Source: Chitinophagia bacterium (lineage in GTDB: Bacteria; Bacteroidota; Bacteroidia; Chitinophagales; Chitinophagaceae). Taken from it: a DNA stretch of 37,964 nucleotides. The stretch lies in the NCBI GenBank assembly GCA_009920495.1, contig RFZW01000008.1:1-37964 (forward strand), read 5' to 3'. The translations under genes and the position numbers were made by a program. Position 1 is the first letter of the stretch. Each line of letters begins with the position of its first letter. Below the pieces are notes generated by a model. That model did not search any database and was not told where the DNA came from. It saw only the letters and a list, made by a program, of their open reading frames with translations. Positions 17,647 to 34,835 of this stretch are shown one piece after another.

Positions 17647-20547
17647 ATGTCAAATCAACGATTTTTAGCCTTGGATGTTTTTAGAGGAATGACCATTTGC
17701 TTAATGATCATTGTAAATACACCAGGGGATGCTTCGCTCACATTTGCTCCTTTCTTACATGCGAGTTGGCATGGGTTTACGCCCACGGATTTAGTTTTTC
17801 CTTCCTTTTTATTTGCTGTTGGAAATTCTTTAAGTTTTATTGAACCTACTTGGGCTAAATTAAATAATAGTACTGTTTTATTAAAAATCGGAAAACGCAC
17901 AGCCTTGTTATTTTTAATAGGCTATTTAATGTATTGGTTCCCTTTCACAGGTAGTATTGCAAATACGCGTATTATGGGAGTTTTGCAACGCATTGCACTT
18001 TGTTATGGCTTTGCTTCATTGATTGCATATTTTATGCATGAGCGTGTGGTGATGATTTTGTCTGGTTTATTATTATTACTGTATTGGTATGTTTCATTTA
18101 AGTTTGGAGATGTAGGGGATCCCTATAGTTTACATGGCAACGCAGGTTTAAAATTAGATACTTGGTTAATGGGCGAAACACATTTATACCATGGTGAGGG
18201 ATTCGGGTTTGACCCTGAGGGTTGGTTAAGCACGATACCTTCCATAGTGAATGTATTGATTGGATATCGTGTAGGTAAGTTTATCCAAGAACAAGGAAAG
18301 ACTTATGAGGGTTTGGCCCTTTTATTTATGTGGGGTGCAGGGTTTATATTTTTAGCCTTTATGTGGAATTACCAATTCCCGATCAATAAAAAACTATGGA
18401 CTAGCTCCTTTGTTATGTTAACGGTGGGGATTGATATGGTCATTATTGCCACCATCATCTATCGTGTTGAATTACAAAGGCAATTACAGTTTTCCAGCTT
18501 TTTTACTGTTTTTGGACAAAACCCATTGGTGATTTATCTTTTTTCAGAGTTACTGGTGGCTACTTTATACCTAGTCCATGGACCTAATGGCATCCCCTTA
18601 TATACCTGGATTTATCAAAATACCTTTGCCAATTTTGCCCCTTATTGGGGTTCCATGGGATTCGCCTTTACAGCGATGTTGATATGCTGGCTATTGGGTT
18701 ATATATTAAATAAATATAAGATATATATCAGGGTGAAACAGTACATGGAAATAAGAAACATCGCTATTATCGCCCACGTTGATCACGGTAAAACTACCTT
18801 GGTGGACAAAATTTTACACGCTACAAAAGTATTCAGAGATAACCAGGAGACTGGGGACTTGATTATGGATAGCAATGAATTAGAACGTGAAAGAGGTATT
18901 ACTATCTTAAGTAAAAATGCTTCAGTAACCTATAAAGACGTTAAGATTAACGTAATTGATACACCAGGTCACAGTGACTTTGGTGGTGAGGTGGAGCGTG
19001 TTTTAAAAATGGCAGATGGTGTTTGTTTGTTAGTGGATGCTTTTGAAGGGCCAATGCCGCAAACGCGTTTCGTATTACAAAAAGCATTACAGTTGAATTT
19101 AAAACCAATTGTAATTATTAATAAAGTGGACAAGGAAAACTGTCGTCCTGACGAAGTGCATGATGCAGTATTCGAATTGTTTTTCAATTTAGATGCAACA
19201 GAAGACCAATTAAATTTCCCTACTTTTTATGGTAGTGGTAAAAATGGTTGGTTCAATGATAGCCTTACCCCTTGTACAGATATCTTCCCTTTAATGGATG
19301 GTATTTTGAAATATGTACCAGGTCCTGATGTTAAGGAAGGCCATACACAAATGCAAATCACTTCATTGGATTATTCTTCTTTCTTAGGTCGTATTGCGAT
19401 TGGTAAGGTAGAAAGAGGTACCATTAAAGAAGGTCAAAATATTGTTTTGGTGCAAGCAGATGGCAGCATCAAAAAAAATAAAGTAAAAGAATTATACGTT
19501 TTTGAAGGAATGGGTAAGCGTAAAGTAGCTGAAGTTGTTTCAGGTGACTTATGTGCTGTAGTTGGTTTAGAAGAATTTAATATTGGTGATACCATTGCGG
19601 ATCCAGAAAATCCAGAAGCTTTACCAATCATTAGTGTTGATGAGCCTACCATGAGTATGACTTTTAGTATTAACAACTCACCTTTCTTTGGTAAGGAAGG
19701 AAAGTTTGTTACCTCTCGACATATTCGTGATCGTTTAATGAAAGAGACTGAAAAGAATTTGGCATTGCGTGTGGAAGAAACGGATAGTGCAGATAGTTTC
19801 TTGGTATTTGGTCGTGGTATTTTACATTTAGGTGTATTGGTGGAAACCATGCGTCGTGAAGGATATGAGTTAACTGTCGGAAATCCGCAAGTATTGGTGA
19901 AAGAAATTGATGGTAAAAAACATGAACCATTTGAGATATTAGTGGTGGATGTACCTGCTGATTTTAGTGGTAAAGTTATTGACTTAGTTACCCAAAAGAA
20001 AGGCGAAATGTTGATCATGGAATCAAAAGGAACTATGCAACATTTAGAGTTTGATATTCCTTCAAGAGGATTGATCGGACTTAGATCACAAATGTTGACG
20101 CAAACTGCAGGTGAAGCTGTAATGGCGCATCGCTTTAATGAATACAAGCCTTGGAAAGGACCTATTCCTGGAAGAAGTAATGGTGTATTGGTTGCGAAGT
20201 TTGGTGGAACAACTACTGCTTACTCAATTGATAAATTACAAGACAGAGGACGTTTCTTTATAGAACCAGGTGAGGAAATTTATGCAGGTCAAGTATTGGC
20301 TGAGCATATTAAGCCAGGTGATTTAAATATCAACGCGGTCGAGATGAAAAAATTAACCAACCACCGTGCAAGTGGATCTGATGATAGCGTAAGAATTACC
20401 CCTAAGGTGCAATTCACTTTAGAGGAGTGTATGGAATACATTCAATTTGATGAGTGTATTGAAGTAACGCCAAAATCAGTTCGTATGCGTAAATCTATCT
20501 TAGACGAAAATAACAGAAGTAAGGCAACAAAAGCAGCTTCGAATTAA
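17647..20547 (+). CDS. Continuous frame: NagX/DUF5009-type membrane acyltransferase joined to TypA
   Basis: One uninterrupted 966-residue frame holds two unrelated proteins. Residues 1-366 (17647-18744) form a polytopic membrane protein of the heparan-alpha-glucosaminide N-acetyltransferase/DUF5009 family. It begins RFLALDVFRGMTICLMIIVNTPG, with the block HASWHGFTPTDLVFPSFLF and about ten hydrophobic segments, ending LLGYILNKYKIYIRV, which looks like the family's normal C-terminus. Members acetylate amino sugars or help recycle cell-wall sugars. Residues 367-966 are complete TypA. No stop lies between them. A single change at 18739 (CAG to TAG), or changes in the neighbouring AAA or TAC codons, would create one. 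It may be a true fusion, a recent stop loss with TypA also made from 18745, or a sequence error. Confidence 0.8.
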   Translation: MSNQRFLALDVFRGMTICLMIIVNTPGDASLTFAPFLHASWHGFTPTDLVFPSFLFAVGNSLSFIEPTWAKLNNSTVLLKIGKRTALLFLIGYLMYWFPFTGSIANTRIMGVLQRIALCYGFASLIAYFMHERVVMILSGLLLLLYWYVSFKFGDVGDPYSLHGNAGLKLDTWLMGETHLYHGEGFGFDPEGWLSTIPSIVNVLIGYRVGKFIQEQGKTYEGLALLFMWGAGFIFLAFMWNYQFPINKKLWTSSFVMLTVGIDMVIIATIIYRVELQRQLQFSSFFTVFGQNPLVIYLFSELLVATLYLVHGPNGIPLYTWIYQNTFANFAPYWGSMGFAFTAMLICWLLGYILNKYKIYIRVKQYMEIRNIAIIAHVDHGKTTLVDKILHATKVFRDNQETGDLIMDSNELERERGITILSKNASVTYKDVKINVIDTPGHSDFGGEVERVLKMADGVCLLVDAFEGPMPQTRFVLQKALQLNLKPIVIINKVDKENCRPDEVHDAVFELFFNLDATEDQLNFPTFYGSGKNGWFNDSLTPCTDIFPLMDGILKYVPGPDVKEGHTQMQITSLDYSSFLGRIAIGKVERGTIKEGQNIVLVQADGSIKKNKVKELYVFEGMGKRKVAEVVSGDLCAVVGLEEFNIGDTIADPENPEALPIISVDEPTMSMTFSINNSPFFGKEGKFVTSRHIRDRLMKETEKNLALRVEETDSADSFLVFGRGILHLGVLVETMRREGYELTVGNPQVLVKEIDGKKHEPFEILVVDVPADFSGKVIDLVTQKKGEMLIMESKGTMQHLEFDIPSRGLIGLRSQMLTQTAGEAVMAHRFNEYKPWKGPIPGRSNGVLVAKFGGTTTAYSIDKLQDRGRFFIEPGEEIYAGQVLAEHIKPGDLNINAVEMKKLTNHRASGSDDSVRITPKVQFTLEECMEYIQFDECIEVTPKSVRMRKSILDENNRSKATKAASN
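18745..20547 (+). CDS. typA: Translational GTPase TypA/BipA (likely internal start in the fused frame)
   Basis: TypA is a ribosome-binding GTPase related to EF-G, needed for 50S maturation and stress or cold growth. From ATG 18745 the product is 600 residues, the normal family length. G1 is AHVDHGKT (10-17), switch I has ERGITI, G3 is DTPGH (72-76) and G4 is NKVD (126-129). The EF-G-like domains follow, then the TypA-specific C-terminal domain with FGGTTTAYSIDKLQDRGRFFIEPG and NHRASGSDDSVRITP. AGGGTGA at 18730-18736, 8 bases before this ATG, could act as a ribosome-binding site and supports independent translation. The fused upstream frame is described separately. Three hairpins follow the stop codon. 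Confidence 0.95.
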   Translation: MEIRNIAIIAHVDHGKTTLVDKILHATKVFRDNQETGDLIMDSNELERERGITILSKNASVTYKDVKINVIDTPGHSDFGGEVERVLKMADGVCLLVDAFEGPMPQTRFVLQKALQLNLKPIVIINKVDKENCRPDEVHDAVFELFFNLDATEDQLNFPTFYGSGKNGWFNDSLTPCTDIFPLMDGILKYVPGPDVKEGHTQMQITSLDYSSFLGRIAIGKVERGTIKEGQNIVLVQADGSIKKNKVKELYVFEGMGKRKVAEVVSGDLCAVVGLEEFNIGDTIADPENPEALPIISVDEPTMSMTFSINNSPFFGKEGKFVTSRHIRDRLMKETEKNLALRVEETDSADSFLVFGRGILHLGVLVETMRREGYELTVGNPQVLVKEIDGKKHEPFEILVVDVPADFSGKVIDLVTQKKGEMLIMESKGTMQHLEFDIPSRGLIGLRSQMLTQTAGEAVMAHRFNEYKPWKGPIPGRSNGVLVAKFGGTTTAYSIDKLQDRGRFFIEPGEEIYAGQVLAEHIKPGDLNINAVEMKKLTNHRASGSDDSVRITPKVQFTLEECMEYIQFDECIEVTPKSVRMRKSILDENNRSKATKAASN

Positions 20548-22461: not shown

Positions 22462-22624
22462 TAGATTTAATTCTTTAAAATAGCCATCATTTTAAAATAA
22501 AATCCCATTTTTGTTAGTTTTTTGATTATCAAGTGATTACGAATTGGCTTGGTCCTTTTGGACTAACGCAATTTACTTAACAGTAAAAATCGTAGTTTCG
22601 CAGCTGAAAATTAAAACAAAACAC

Positions 22625-23545
22625 ATGTCATTAGTTGTAGTAGGATCCATGGCCTTTGATGCCATTGAAACACCCTTTGGGAAAAGTGATAAAATTATTG
22701 GCGGAGCAGCAACTTACATTGCTTGGTGCGCTTCCAATTTTACCACTGTAAAGCAAATTTCAGTAGTGGGTGGCGATTTCCCACAATCTGAATTAGACGC
22801 CTTAGCAAATAGAGGCGTTATTTTGGAAGGGGTGCAGATTAAAAAAGACGAGAAAACATTTTTTTGGAGCGGTAAGTATCATTTAGATATGAATAGCCGT
22901 GATACAATTGAAACGCAATTAAATGTGTTAGAAAATTTCGAACCTGTGGTTCCGGATAGTTATCAGGATTGTGAAATATTGATGTTGGGAAATTTAGTTC
23001 CAGGTGTTCAAAGTAGCGTGATCAAACAAATGAAAAAGCGTCCTAAGTTGATTGTAATGGACACCATGAACTTTTGGATGGAAATTATGATGGATGATTT
23101 ATTACATACGATTAGTTTGGTGGATGTATTGATGGTGAATGATAGTGAAGCCCGTCAATTAAGTGGAGAATATAGTTTGGTTAAGGCGGCTAAAAAAATC
23201 ATGGCCATGGGTCCCAAATACTTAATTATTAAAAAAGGAGAACACGGGGCATTGTTATTCCATGAGAACGAAGTGTTTTTTGCACCAGCTTTACCTTTAG
23301 AAGAAGTATTTGATCCAACCGGTGCTGGTGATACTTTTGCTGGTGGATTTGTAGCACATTTGGCTAAAACAAAAGATTTTTCATTTAACAATATGAAGTC
23401 TGCTATTATCTTAGGTAGTGCTTTAGCGAGCTTCTGTGTGGAAAAATTTGGTACACAAAGATTAACTGAAATTAACGAGTCGGATATCAAAGCGCGCGTA
23501 CAATCGTTCGTTCAGTTGGTTAATTTTGATATTGAATTAGTTTAA
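22625..23545 (+). CDS. PfkB-family carbohydrate kinase
   Basis: This is a ribokinase-fold kinase that phosphorylates a sugar, nucleoside or related alcohol with ATP. From ATG 22625 the protein has 306 residues, with an N-terminal GSMAFDAIETPFGKSDKIIGGAATYIAW substrate region and the C-terminal signature DPTGAGDTFAGGFVAHLA. Asp236 is the likely catalytic base in GAGD. The middle contains VLMVNDSEARQLSG and YLIIKKGEHGALLF, both typical of the family. The frame is open back to 22544, but that extension shows no conserved sequence, and MSLVVVGSMAFD is the normal beginning. The kinase specificity is not readable. Its stop codon is followed immediately by the promoter of the asd leader. Confidence 0.9.
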   Translation: MSLVVVGSMAFDAIETPFGKSDKIIGGAATYIAWCASNFTTVKQISVVGGDFPQSELDALANRGVILEGVQIKKDEKTFFWSGKYHLDMNSRDTIETQLNVLENFEPVVPDSYQDCEILMLGNLVPGVQSSVIKQMKKRPKLIVMDTMNFWMEIMMDDLLHTISLVDVLMVNDSEARQLSGEYSLVKAAKKIMAMGPKYLIIKKGEHGALLFHENEVFFAPALPLEEVFDPTGAGDTFAGGFVAHLAKTKDFSFNNMKSAIILGSALASFCVEKFGTQRLTEINESDIKARVQSFVQLVNFDIELV

Positions 23546-23547
23546 AT

Positions 23548-23578
23548 TTGGTAAAATCAATACATCCAATTAATTTTG
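23548..23578 (+). promoter_or_regulatory. Bacteroidota-type promoter of the asd leader
   Basis: A TTG (23548-23550), a 20-base spacer and a perfect TAATTTTG (23571-23578) begin two bases after the sugar kinase stop codon. The predicted start near 23584 lies just before the leader peptide ATG. Confidence 0.65.
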
Positions 23579-23585
23579 TTGAACA

Positions 23586-23630
23586 ATGATGAAAAATAAA
23601 CATACAAAACAAATTAAGAAACCCCTGTAA
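23586..23630 (+). CDS. Putative lysine-rich leader peptide of the asd attenuator
   Basis: The 14-residue open frame MMKNKHTKQIKKPL ends with TAA and is followed directly by an in-frame TAG. Five of the 14 codons are lysine (AAA or AAG), two of them adjacent near the end; one is threonine. The frame begins within a few bases of the predicted transcription start and stops 2 bases before the first pairing segment (GGAAGG, 23633-23638) of the downstream attenuator. Since aspartate-semialdehyde dehydrogenase lies on the pathway to lysine, threonine and methionine, stalling at lysine codons would make regulatory sense. AT-rich DNA favours AAA codons by chance, so conservation in relatives is the needed test. 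ATG at 23589 is an equally possible start. Confidence 0.5.
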   Translation: MMKNKHTKQIKKPL

Positions 23631-23632
23631 TA

Positions 23633-23710
23633 GGAAGGTGCTGATTGTTAGTATGCGAATAAATATACTCAGAAGCCTTCCAATAAAATGGAAGGCTTTT
23701 TTCTTTTTCT
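23633..23710 (+). promoter_or_regulatory. Transcription attenuator upstream of asd (antiterminator/terminator pair)
   Basis: Three segments can pair in two ways. Segment 1 (GGAAGG, 23633-23638), with CTG (23641-23643) and AGTAT (23650-23654), can pair with ATACT (23665-23669), CAG (23670-23672) and CCTTCC (23676-23681) to form an antiterminator. Alternatively AAGCCTTCCA (23673-23682) pairs perfectly with TGGAAGGCTT (23689-23698) around ATAAAA, followed by a T-rich run (23697-23709): a standard terminator. A ribosome at the leader stop codon would cover segment 1 and favour termination. One stalled upstream on lysine codons would leave it free. The terminator is seen directly; the switch is inferred. 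Confidence 0.65.
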
Positions 23711-23757
23711 AAGACTTTGTAAAATAAAACACTTGAAAAAGAAAAACCTGATAATTT

Positions 23758-23785
23758 CAAAGTACTTAAAAGTGCTTTGAGTTTT
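23758..23785 (+). terminator. Second hairpin with T-run before asd
   Basis: CAAAGTAC (23758-23765) pairs with GTGCTTTG (23772-23779), seven Watson-Crick pairs plus one G-T, around TTAAAA, then AG and five T. It lies 37 bp upstream of asd, between the attenuator and the gene. It may be a second weak terminator or a regulatory site. Confidence 0.4.
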
Positions 23786-23821
23786 TCGACAAGCATAATG
23801 TTAACGTAAAAAATAAAAAAA

Positions 23822-24820
23822 ATGAAAGTTGCAGTTGTAGGAGCCACAGGACTAGTTGGAACAAAAATGTTGCAAGTATTAGCGGAACGAAATTTTCCAG
23901 TAACTGAATTAATTCCTGTTGCATCGGCACGCTCAGCAGGTAAGGAAATAATATTTAAGGGCAAACCTTATAAGGTGGTAACCATGGAGGAAGGGATTGC
24001 TGCAAAACCAGCCGTTGCTTTATTTTCGGCAGGAGGTAGTACCTCATTGGAGTGGGCGCCAAAGTTTGCAGAAGCTGGTATTCGTGTGATTGACAATTCC
24101 TCTGCTTGGAGAATGGATCCAACCAAAAAATTAGTGGTGCCAGAAGTAAACGCATCTGTTTTAACAGCCAACGATTTAATTATTGCGAATCCAAATTGCT
24201 CTACCATTCAAATGGTTGTTGCTTTGCAACCTTTGCATGATAAATATAAAATTAAAAGAGTAGTGGTAAGCACTTATCAAAGTGTAACGGGTACTGGTAA
24301 AAAAGCAGTAGATCAGTTAATGGAAGAAAGAAAAGGAAGTCAAGTGGCTGCTGCAGATATGGCATATAAGTACACCATTGATTTGAATGCTATTCCGCAG
24401 ATTGATGTTTTTTTAGAGAATGGGTATACCAAAGAGGAAATGAAGATGGTGAAAGAAACCTGCAAAATTATGCAGGACGATAATATTAAAGTTACAGCGA
24501 CTACTGTTCGTATTCCAGTGATGGGTGGACACAGTGAAAGTGTAAATGTGGAATTTGAAAATGAATTTGATTTGAATGAATTGATCGCATTACTTGGCAC
24601 CGCACCTGGTGTGGTTGTGCAACAAAATGATGGGGATCAATTTTATCCAATGCCTTTATGGGCACACGAAAAGGATGAAGTTTTTGTAGGACGTTTGCGC
24701 AGAGATGAAACACAAGCGAAAACATTAAATATGTGGATTGTAAGTGACAACTTGCGTAAAGGTGCCGCTACCAATGCCATTCAAATTGCAGAATACCTTG
24801 CCGCAAAAGGAATTATTTAA
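23822..24820 (+). CDS. asd: Aspartate-semialdehyde dehydrogenase
   Basis: The enzyme makes aspartate semialdehyde from aspartyl phosphate with NADPH, at the branch to lysine/diaminopimelate, threonine and methionine. The 332-residue protein begins with the nucleotide loop VAVVGATGLVGTKML (residues 3-17). SARSAGKEI, FSAGGSTS and DNSSAWRMD follow. Catalytic Cys126 is in NPNCSTIQ and His237 in VRIPVMGGHSESV; STYQSVTGTGKKA is the substrate segment. Length and residues match the bacterial enzyme, so activity is expected. The 276-bp upstream gap holds the putative attenuator with a lysine-rich leader peptide, which would tie expression to amino-acid supply. It is convergent with ligA. Confidence 0.96.
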   Translation: MKVAVVGATGLVGTKMLQVLAERNFPVTELIPVASARSAGKEIIFKGKPYKVVTMEEGIAAKPAVALFSAGGSTSLEWAPKFAEAGIRVIDNSSAWRMDPTKKLVVPEVNASVLTANDLIIANPNCSTIQMVVALQPLHDKYKIKRVVVSTYQSVTGTGKKAVDQLMEERKGSQVAAADMAYKYTIDLNAIPQIDVFLENGYTKEEMKMVKETCKIMQDDNIKVTATTVRIPVMGGHSESVNVEFENEFDLNELIALLGTAPGVVVQQNDGDQFYPMPLWAHEKDEVFVGRLRRDETQAKTLNMWIVSDNLRKGAATNAIQIAEYLAAKGII

Positions 24821-33289: not shown

Positions 33290-34835
33290 TTATCTAGAAA
33301 ACAATCCATCCAAGTAGGATTCCTTAAATTCAATGTAGGTAGGTGCACCAGATGCGGTTACGTTGGGTATATCACACTCACTTAGTGATTGGATAATGGT
33401 ATGCATCTCCTTTTGTGATAAACTTTGTCCAGCTTTGATGGCCATTTGTCTAGACATGCAACGAATTAATTTTTCTCTTTTACTATATTTTACTTCACCA
33501 GTAAAATGTTTAAACTGTTCTAATAATAATTCAATGGCATTTTTTTCGTTGCCTGATAAAACATCAGCAGGTATGCCTTGAATAATAAAACTATTGCTTC
33601 CAAAAGATTCTATTTCATATCCAATAATGGATAAGTCTTCCAGCATTTCATCTAATAATATGGCATCACTTGGGCTCAATTCCAACACCACTGGGAATAA
33701 ACTTTTTTGAGTTGCATGGGGATGTGAACTTGCTTTTTGGTATTTTTCATATAAAACACGTTCATGTGCCAATTGCTGATGTAATATGATGCAGCCACTT
33801 TGCGTAGGGGCGATAATATAGGTATTGTGTAATTGTAACAATAGTGCATCTTCCAGTACGCTTAAACTTTCGGTTTCTTTGTACAAGCCCATGGAGGAAG
33901 GTTTAACAATATATGACTCAGTTGAAGGAGCGGTATCTGAAATTTCACTGGTCTCATTTGACGTACTCGGAATATTTGTAAAAAAACTTTTCCACAATGC
34001 ATGTTTGACTGCGGCTTGAACAAAAGCGTATATTATTTTATCGTCCTCGAATTTAATTTCTTGTTTGGTAGGGTGTACATTAATGTCAATTTGTGAAGGG
34101 TCCACATCAATGTATAATATATAGCTGGGGTAACTGTCCTTGGGAAGTAATCCTTCAAATGCATTGGCTACTGCATGATGTAAATAGGCGCTTTTAATAA
34201 AACGACGATTCACAAAAAAGTATTGGTCGCTTCTTGTTTTACGCGCAGTTTCGGGTTTGCCAACAAATCCAGATACGGTTAAGTAATCCGTTTGTTCCCC
34301 TACAGTTACTAGTTTTGTTTGATAATTATTTCCCAGTACTTGAATGGCTCTTTGTTTAAAGCTGCCGCCCTCCCAATGATACACATCCTGTCCGTTACTT
34401 GTTAAACTAAAAAATATTTCAGGAAAGGAAAGCGCGACTCTTGTAAACTCTTCAATGATATGTTTTAATTCTGCTCCATTGCTCTTTAAAAAATTGCGAC
34501 GTGCAGGCACATTGAAAAATAAATATGGAGGCGAGGGCTTCCCCGCGAAATCCCATGGTTCTTATTTGAAATAAATCCTCAATCGTACTTATTTTACTGG
34601 TGGCATGTCGGGCAAATGCATTTTGGGCATCCGCAACGCTCATGCCTTTTCCATTATCAATGACTTGAATTAAGGCCTTCCCTGCATCATTGACAATTAA
34701 TTTTATCTGAGTAGCACCAGCATCTACCGCATTCTCCATTAATTCCTTTACGGCACTAGCTGGCCTTTGAATCACCTCGCCTGCAGCAATTTGATTGGCA
34801 ATGTGGTCCGGAAGTAAATGAATGGTATCAGACAA
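33290..34835 (-). pseudogene. mutL: mutL, disrupted by an internal deletion and frameshift
   Basis: MutL links mismatch recognition to strand removal. The gene starts at TTG 34835 and reads normally through the ATPase motifs ([34 protein letters not shown], then [11 protein letters not shown]), then changes into nonsense and stops at 34452. A second frame, offset by one base, picks up at [14 protein letters not shown] (around 34510) and continues through the rest of MutL to 33290, ending ASGAPTYIEFKESYLDG. Intact homologues have, as I recall, about 46 residues between ASI and LFFNVPARR; here they are missing. A loss of about 137 bases fits the frame change. Both halves are otherwise well conserved, so the break appears recent. 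Without it the protein would be about 620 residues. The GTG at 34510 is not a likely separate start. Confidence 0.88.

Follow-up and report, generated by a model that had tools for sequence, protein, structure and literature searches.

A putative lysine-reading transcription attenuator before asd in Chitinophagaceae, with the same architecture before dapA and hisG

The region directly upstream of asd in a Chitinophagaceae contig very probably carries a ribosome-mediated transcription attenuator that controls asd according to the level of charged tRNA-Lys. The element occupies 23547-23708, between a carbohydrate-kinase-like gene (22544-23545), its direct upstream neighbor, and asd (23822..24820, +), the gene for aspartate-semialdehyde dehydrogenase and the predicted target of regulation (TIGR01296, 425.2 bits; cut-off 324.2). 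The preliminary description had proposed an attenuator here from the letters of the locus alone. Its conservation in relatives, and the occurrence of the same architecture before dapA, where the codons are for Lys, and before hisG, where they are for His, support that proposal.

The window, that is, the whole stretch of DNA analyzed (37,964 nucleotides), comes from a Bacteroidota genome (G000) of 2.29 Mb that is 78% complete. Two other loci in the window have unusual reading frames (gene names by eye). A single 966-residue frame at 17647-20547 (+) joins a part resembling a membrane acyltransferase to one resembling a TypA/BipA GTPase, which indicates either a fusion or a lost stop, and a MutL-like gene is split over two overlapping frames at 33290-34510 and 34452-34835 (-), by a frameshift of either the genome or the assembly.

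The leader ORF (MMKNKHTKQIKKPL, 23586..23630, +) runs from ATG to TAA with 14 codons, five of them Lys, and a second in-frame stop, TAG (23631-23633, +), stands in tandem with the TAA. This frame, its Lys codons, and its tandem stops had been described before, and the coordinates were correct when re-checked. The putative control codons are Lys-Lys (AAG AAA) at 23616..23621 (+). Upstream of the ORF is a Bacteroidota-type promoter pattern (23547..23578, +) made up of TTTG (23547-23550), a 20-nt spacer, and TAATTTTG (23571-23578), which ends 7 nt before the leader ATG. We take TTTG-N20-TAnnTTYG to be the promoter type of this phylum and computed its conservation. TTTG (at least 3 of 4 matches) together with TAnnTTYG was present as a sequence pattern in 78 of 94 asd elements, 15 of 15 dapA elements, and 11 of 14 hisG elements, and the distance from promoter to leader ATG was 4-10 nt in most elements. 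The second box alone was found in 82 of the 94 asd elements compared to 188 of 6150 shuffled upstream sequences. A sigma-70 promoter scan found nothing at the leader. The "consensus promoter" reported earlier thus holds as a conserved Bacteroidota-type pattern, which is likely the promoter of the leader, and not as a sigma-70 promoter. Transcription would start just upstream of the leader ATG.

Downstream of the promoter the RNA could fold in competing ways. Segment 1 (CATACAAAACAA, 23601..23612, +) lies within the leader ORF and can pair with 23645-23655 to form a protector. Segment 2 (23633..23655, +) consists of GGAAGG (23633-23638) and TTGTTAGTATG (23645-23655). Segment 3 (ATATACTCAG...GCCTTCC, 23663..23681, +), with CCTTCC within 23675-23681, can form either the antiterminator with segment 2 or the terminator with segment 4. 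Segment 4 (GGAAGGCTTTT) and the T-run span 23690..23708 (+), with GGAAGG at 23690-23695 and T residues at 23697-23702 and 23704-23708. The preliminary description had recognized three segments and two pairings; all three of its GGAAGG, CCTTCC, and GGAAGG motifs are present, but it overlooked the pairing of 23601-23612 with 23645-23655. Because segment 1 is inside the leader ORF, the count of segments rises from three to four. The first GGAAGG does begin two bases past the leader TAA, as had been stated.

A terminator scan recovered the hairpin at 23671-23700 (12 pairs, then T6CT5), in agreement with the terminator and T-run first described. The fold of 23671-23708 had a free energy of -16.9 kcal/mol, and none of 200 shuffles was as good. 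The alternative stem at 23633-23681 folded at -16.2 kcal/mol and included CTGA/TCAG, so that the additional CTG/CAG pairing noticed earlier is part of it; shuffles as good numbered 0 of 200 for 23631-23681 and 1 of 200 for the longer 23584-23681. When the region was base-shuffled 20,000 times, 40 of the shuffled sequences contained a terminator with an additional copy of its 3' arm upstream. Antiterminator and terminator are predicted to be mutually exclusive.

Two more hairpins, at 23697-23744 and 23756-23781, lie between the attenuator and asd, and the second is terminator-like. Similar hairpins with altered arms were seen in L002 and L007 and were absent in L003. A genome search with the 23756-23781 hairpin gave weak partial matches as its sole other copies. 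The presence of this second terminator-like hairpin, which transcription into asd would have to pass, counts against the attenuator reading.

We searched for asd in 60 relatives (57 matched, 30 loci kept) and kept 80 loci from a contig collection, for 110 loci. The element preceded asd in 49 of the 110. These were the 47 distinct elements of alignment A1, L033 (excluded from A1 since its element equals that of L019), and L018, which was recovered by covariance model. The model found no match in the remaining 61 loci, two of which had too little sequence (L063 and L077, with less than 90 nt upstream, were not judgeable). Seven relatives without the element (L004, L015, L016, L017, L021, L031, and L036) had asd directly after the kinase-like gene, as if leader and terminator had been lost and asd had merged into the kinase operon. 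A covariance model, R1, trained on the asd leaders of A1 only, matched 189 of 294 Chitinophagaceae genomes (E <= 0.01), in 75 of 101 genera, with the downstream gene checked at fetched loci only. In a sample of 298 genomes of the order, 58 genomes gave a match at E <= 0.001, every one of them from Chitinophagaceae. Each of the 30 best R1 loci had asd, 29 over at least 325 of 332 residues and L120 over 72. Sediminibacterium roseum, Niastella yeongjuensis, and Limnovirga soli, all Chitinophagaceae, are among the species in which asd has the element. A search of relatives for a conserved leader frame and alternative pairing had been suggested as a check on the original proposal; the frame and Lys-Lys are conserved in the family, as are the promoter and three pairings that covary.

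The leader ORF was present in 94 of 94 asd elements examined, with 10-26 codons and a start codon of ATG in 93 and GTG in one. Some genomes were met in two collections, and counts are therefore also given for the 84 distinct peptides or 88 distinct leader sequences; the leader table omits L141 and L159 (repeats of L131 and L135) and L112 (the window). Lysine made up 28.1% of residues in the 84 distinct peptides, compared to 15.6% in shuffled leaders, as A-rich sequence by itself often encodes Lys. Lys-Lys occurred in 80 of the 84 distinct peptides and in 90 of the 94 elements (26.1, sd 4.3, in shuffles). The true frame had no stops, and the other two frames had 8.8% and 12.1% Lys with 9.7% and 5.9% stops. 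At both codons of the leaders anchored on Lys-Lys, AAG and AAA interchanged (73/17 and 71/19). Of 106 asd and dapA elements measured (3 of 109 were left unmeasured), 104 had GGAAGG starting 7-15 nt past Lys-Lys. The covariance model holds the ATG columns, and its matches consequently lean towards having a start codon; this lean does not account for codons that are specific to the gene downstream.

RNAalifold on a MAFFT alignment predicted no structure, possibly from mutual cancelling of the competing pairings and from indels, so the pairings were written by hand and counted on A1. For 1:2, the covariation score was 0.186 compared to 0.115 in shuffles (0 of 500 as high), and there were 39 doubly changed cells compared to 17.8 (sd 5.5); two of the five measures for this pairing fell within shuffles (double-change pairs, 68 of 500; pair types, 90 of 500). 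The scores were 0.151 versus 0.119 for 2:3 (3 of 500 shuffles) and 0.329 versus 0.238 for 3:4 (0 of 500). Within 2:3, the GGAAGG/CCTTCC helix was paired in 93.2% of cells and the inner helix in 56.2%. Swapping partners between sequences weakened 1:2 from -10.46 to -9.0 kcal/mol and 2:3 from -18.55 to -16.86 kcal/mol, and for neither pairing were any of 2000 permutations as good. In L023 and L040 the motifs read GGGGC/GCCCC/GGGGC instead of GGAAGG/CCTTCC/GGAAGG; all three segments have therefore changed jointly.

These pairings suggest a switch that the leader ribosome would set. When lysine is plentiful, the ribosome would pass Lys-Lys and reach the stop, covering segment 2, so that 3:4 could pair and transcription would stop near 23703-23708. 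When charged tRNA-Lys is scarce, a ribosome stalled at Lys-Lys would cover segment 1 and expose segment 2, and 2:3 could then form ahead of the synthesis of segment 4, allowing read-through into asd. With no ribosome on the leader, 1:2 would act as a protector.

We modeled these states by forcing the ribosome footprint to be unpaired in a transcript ending before segment 4, with footprints assumed to extend 9 or 11 nt past the A codon (one of 123 elements was unscored). Averaged over 93 asd elements, the probability of 2:3 was 0.96 or 0.92 (9 or 11 nt) when the second Lys codon occupied the A site; two codons further on, it was 0.47 or 0.15, and with the ribosome at the stop it was 0.00. The loss of 2:3 thus came one to two codons beyond Lys-Lys, likewise for dapA elements and about one codon later for hisG. 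Without a ribosome, before segment 4, the equilibrium probability of 2:3 was 0.99 in the window, with means of 0.51 for asd, 0.16 for dapA, and 0.19 for hisG. In the window itself 1:2 was weak (-7.1 kcal/mol), and the fold of 23584-23681 showed 2:3 rather than 1:2; a protector role for 1:2 in this copy is doubtful under the model. Once segment 4 was present, the terminator dominated all states, including that with a stalled ribosome (0.83-0.98), and the switch must therefore be kinetic.

The covariance model also led to genes other than asd. Regions fetched for 20 model matches comprised 14 asd and 6 dapA loci, and 40 second-tier regions comprised 6 asd, 9 dapA, and 14 hisG loci and 11 judged by eye to be chance terminators (L180, L186, L187, L190, L192, L194, L195, and L197-L200). 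Family models established the identity of one DapA and one HisG; the rest were named from translated sequence. The dapA leaders (15 loci, 13 distinct peptides) contained 24.8% Lys, e.g., MQLIKKHTKRVKKHSKREG, with Lys-Lys in 11 of the 13. The hisG leaders (14 loci, 13 distinct peptides) contained 32.8% His, e.g., MKNIRHIHHHHSLLQK, with HHH in 12 of the 13. A model trained without his leaders found hisG leaders and thus found one architecture with other codons, and the putative hisG leaders are an internal positive control for it. The predicted control codons fit the product of the regulated pathway, Lys for asd and dapA and His for hisG. In the genus of the window, a His-run leader of matching architecture was seen in all six readable hisG loci of seven (L201-L206); in the genome that contains the window, the hisG locus is truncated at a contig end. 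By eye, no leader was seen before dapA in this genus (L208-L213, 6 of 6), where dapA closely follows another gene, and none was evident before lysC-type aspartokinases (L222-L226 and L228-L231). Thr/Ile-rich leader frames, e.g., MEKQQKISPSFKISASAFIAVFTFTTTTTTR, preceded thrA, the gene for the bifunctional aspartokinase/homoserine dehydrogenase, in L216, L217, L219, and L220. Of the thrA loci from the window's genus, L216 was the exception, and L218 and L221 had no leader by eye.

It is possible, if somewhat improbable, that the attenuator is real but that asd leaders report on the aspartate family, with stalling at Thr or Met codons counting as much as stalling at Lys. In 13 genomes with both leaders, which come from just four genera, Thr was higher in the asd leader than in the dapA leader in 9 and lower in 0, and Met was higher in 10 and lower in 0. 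This excess would fit a role of asd in supplying Lys, Thr, and Met, and of dapA in supplying Lys. Moreover, Thr was the commonest residue before Lys-Lys (48 of 90 elements, with four Thr codons in use), and stalls at upstream codons likewise yielded 2:3 in the masking model. However, Ile showed the opposite trend (higher in asd in 1 genome, lower in 8), some of the Thr and His codons are linked to segment 1, and Lys, for which asd leaders had more in 3 genomes, fewer in 4, and ties in 6, is the residue common to asd and dapA leaders. Falling a little short of an even chance, in our estimate, is a wider picture in which the aspartate pathway of Chitinophagaceae is run by codon-tuned attenuators (Thr/Ile for thrA, Lys with Thr and perhaps Met for asd, Lys for dapA), and asd, dapA, and hisG share one promoter-leader-hairpin architecture whose specificity is set by codons.

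Other explanations fare worse than attenuation by a lysine-read leader. It is very unlikely that the terminated short RNA or the basic peptide acts in trans as well; there is precedent in a trp leader (PMC7298713; PMC10117765, the portions available), but the C-terminal part of the leader peptide is highly variable. There is only a slight chance that the hairpin is the plain intrinsic terminator of the kinase-like gene and that the leader frame and first GGAAGG arose by chance. The hairpin and T-run do make a good terminator, 126 nt after that gene. However, of the 94 asd loci with a leader, only 47 gave a match to that kinase (some flanks were short), and the element is therefore independent of that neighbor; the conserved frame, promoter, and alternative pairings, and the recurrence before dapA and hisG, also speak against chance. 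We give next to no credence to a metabolite-binding riboswitch or T-box in place of a ribosome-read leader: RNA-based lysine control elsewhere is often by riboswitch (PMC1262725, in the part available), but an Rfam scan of the window gave no family at threshold, lysine riboswitch and T-box included, neither of the two appeared in 23530-23830 down to E 10, where all matches were far below thresholds, and what is conserved is an ORF, with codons that track the regulated gene (Lys or His).

Regulation by lysine at the RNA level is usually attributed to the lysine riboswitch; a leader peptide read for lysine before asd and dapA, if real, would add to the amino acids sensed by attenuation. It would also provide a tractable attenuator family in a Bacteroidota family for which none was found in the literature among the matches listed, and with Lys and His versions in the same genomes, codon replacement would offer a direct test of how attenuator specificity evolves. 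The preliminary description knew of no such element in this group. Our literature search is in line with this: among the matches listed, with supplements and most subscription journals outside its scope, it brought up no lysine leader peptide in Bacteroidota. In the portions available, PMC4833913 treats leader genes in general, PMC7366714 mentions short ORFs of Bacteroides that resemble leader peptides, and the word Bacteroidetes is absent from PMC2965389.

Among the closest systems by description are the unnamed candidate leader peptides of Flavobacterium psychrophilum, which precede amino-acid operons and include a conserved 5' element at hisG (PMC9723704). They share the phylum, the proposed mechanism, and the hisG target with the present elements; in contrast, they belong to another family and, in the portion of the paper available, include no lysine, asd, or dapA case, with "lysine" absent from the main text. 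SEP5 of Sinorhizobium meliloti, a short ORF (six Thr codons and three Lys codons) within the 5' UTR of an "aspartate dehydrogenase" gene, is also a proposed Thr/Lys leader peptide, but in the available portion it is conserved in Sinorhizobium only, belongs to another phylum, and is given no competing hairpins (PMC10117765). The lysine riboswitch (L box) likewise controls lysine-pathway genes through RNA, as proposed here; however, it binds lysine directly, and the window has no match to it. Classic attenuators have trp, his, thr, ilv, leu, and phe specificities. Some of these specificities are covered in the available part of PMC1262725, where lysine appears under riboswitches. Unlike them, the asd element has lysine codons, asd and dapA as targets, a Bacteroidota-type promoter, and no Rfam leader family at threshold (in 23530-23830, Thr_leader reached 15.5 bits and Phe_leader 24.1 bits on the plus and 29 bits on the minus strand; threshold 55). 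Like them, it has a predicted leader peptide with control codons, competing hairpins, an intrinsic terminator, and a biosynthetic gene for the same amino acid. The mechanism itself is classical; the lysine specificity, the lineage, and the use before both asd and dapA appear to be new, as does the greater Thr and Met content of asd leaders relative to dapA leaders of the same genomes (13 genomes, four genera).
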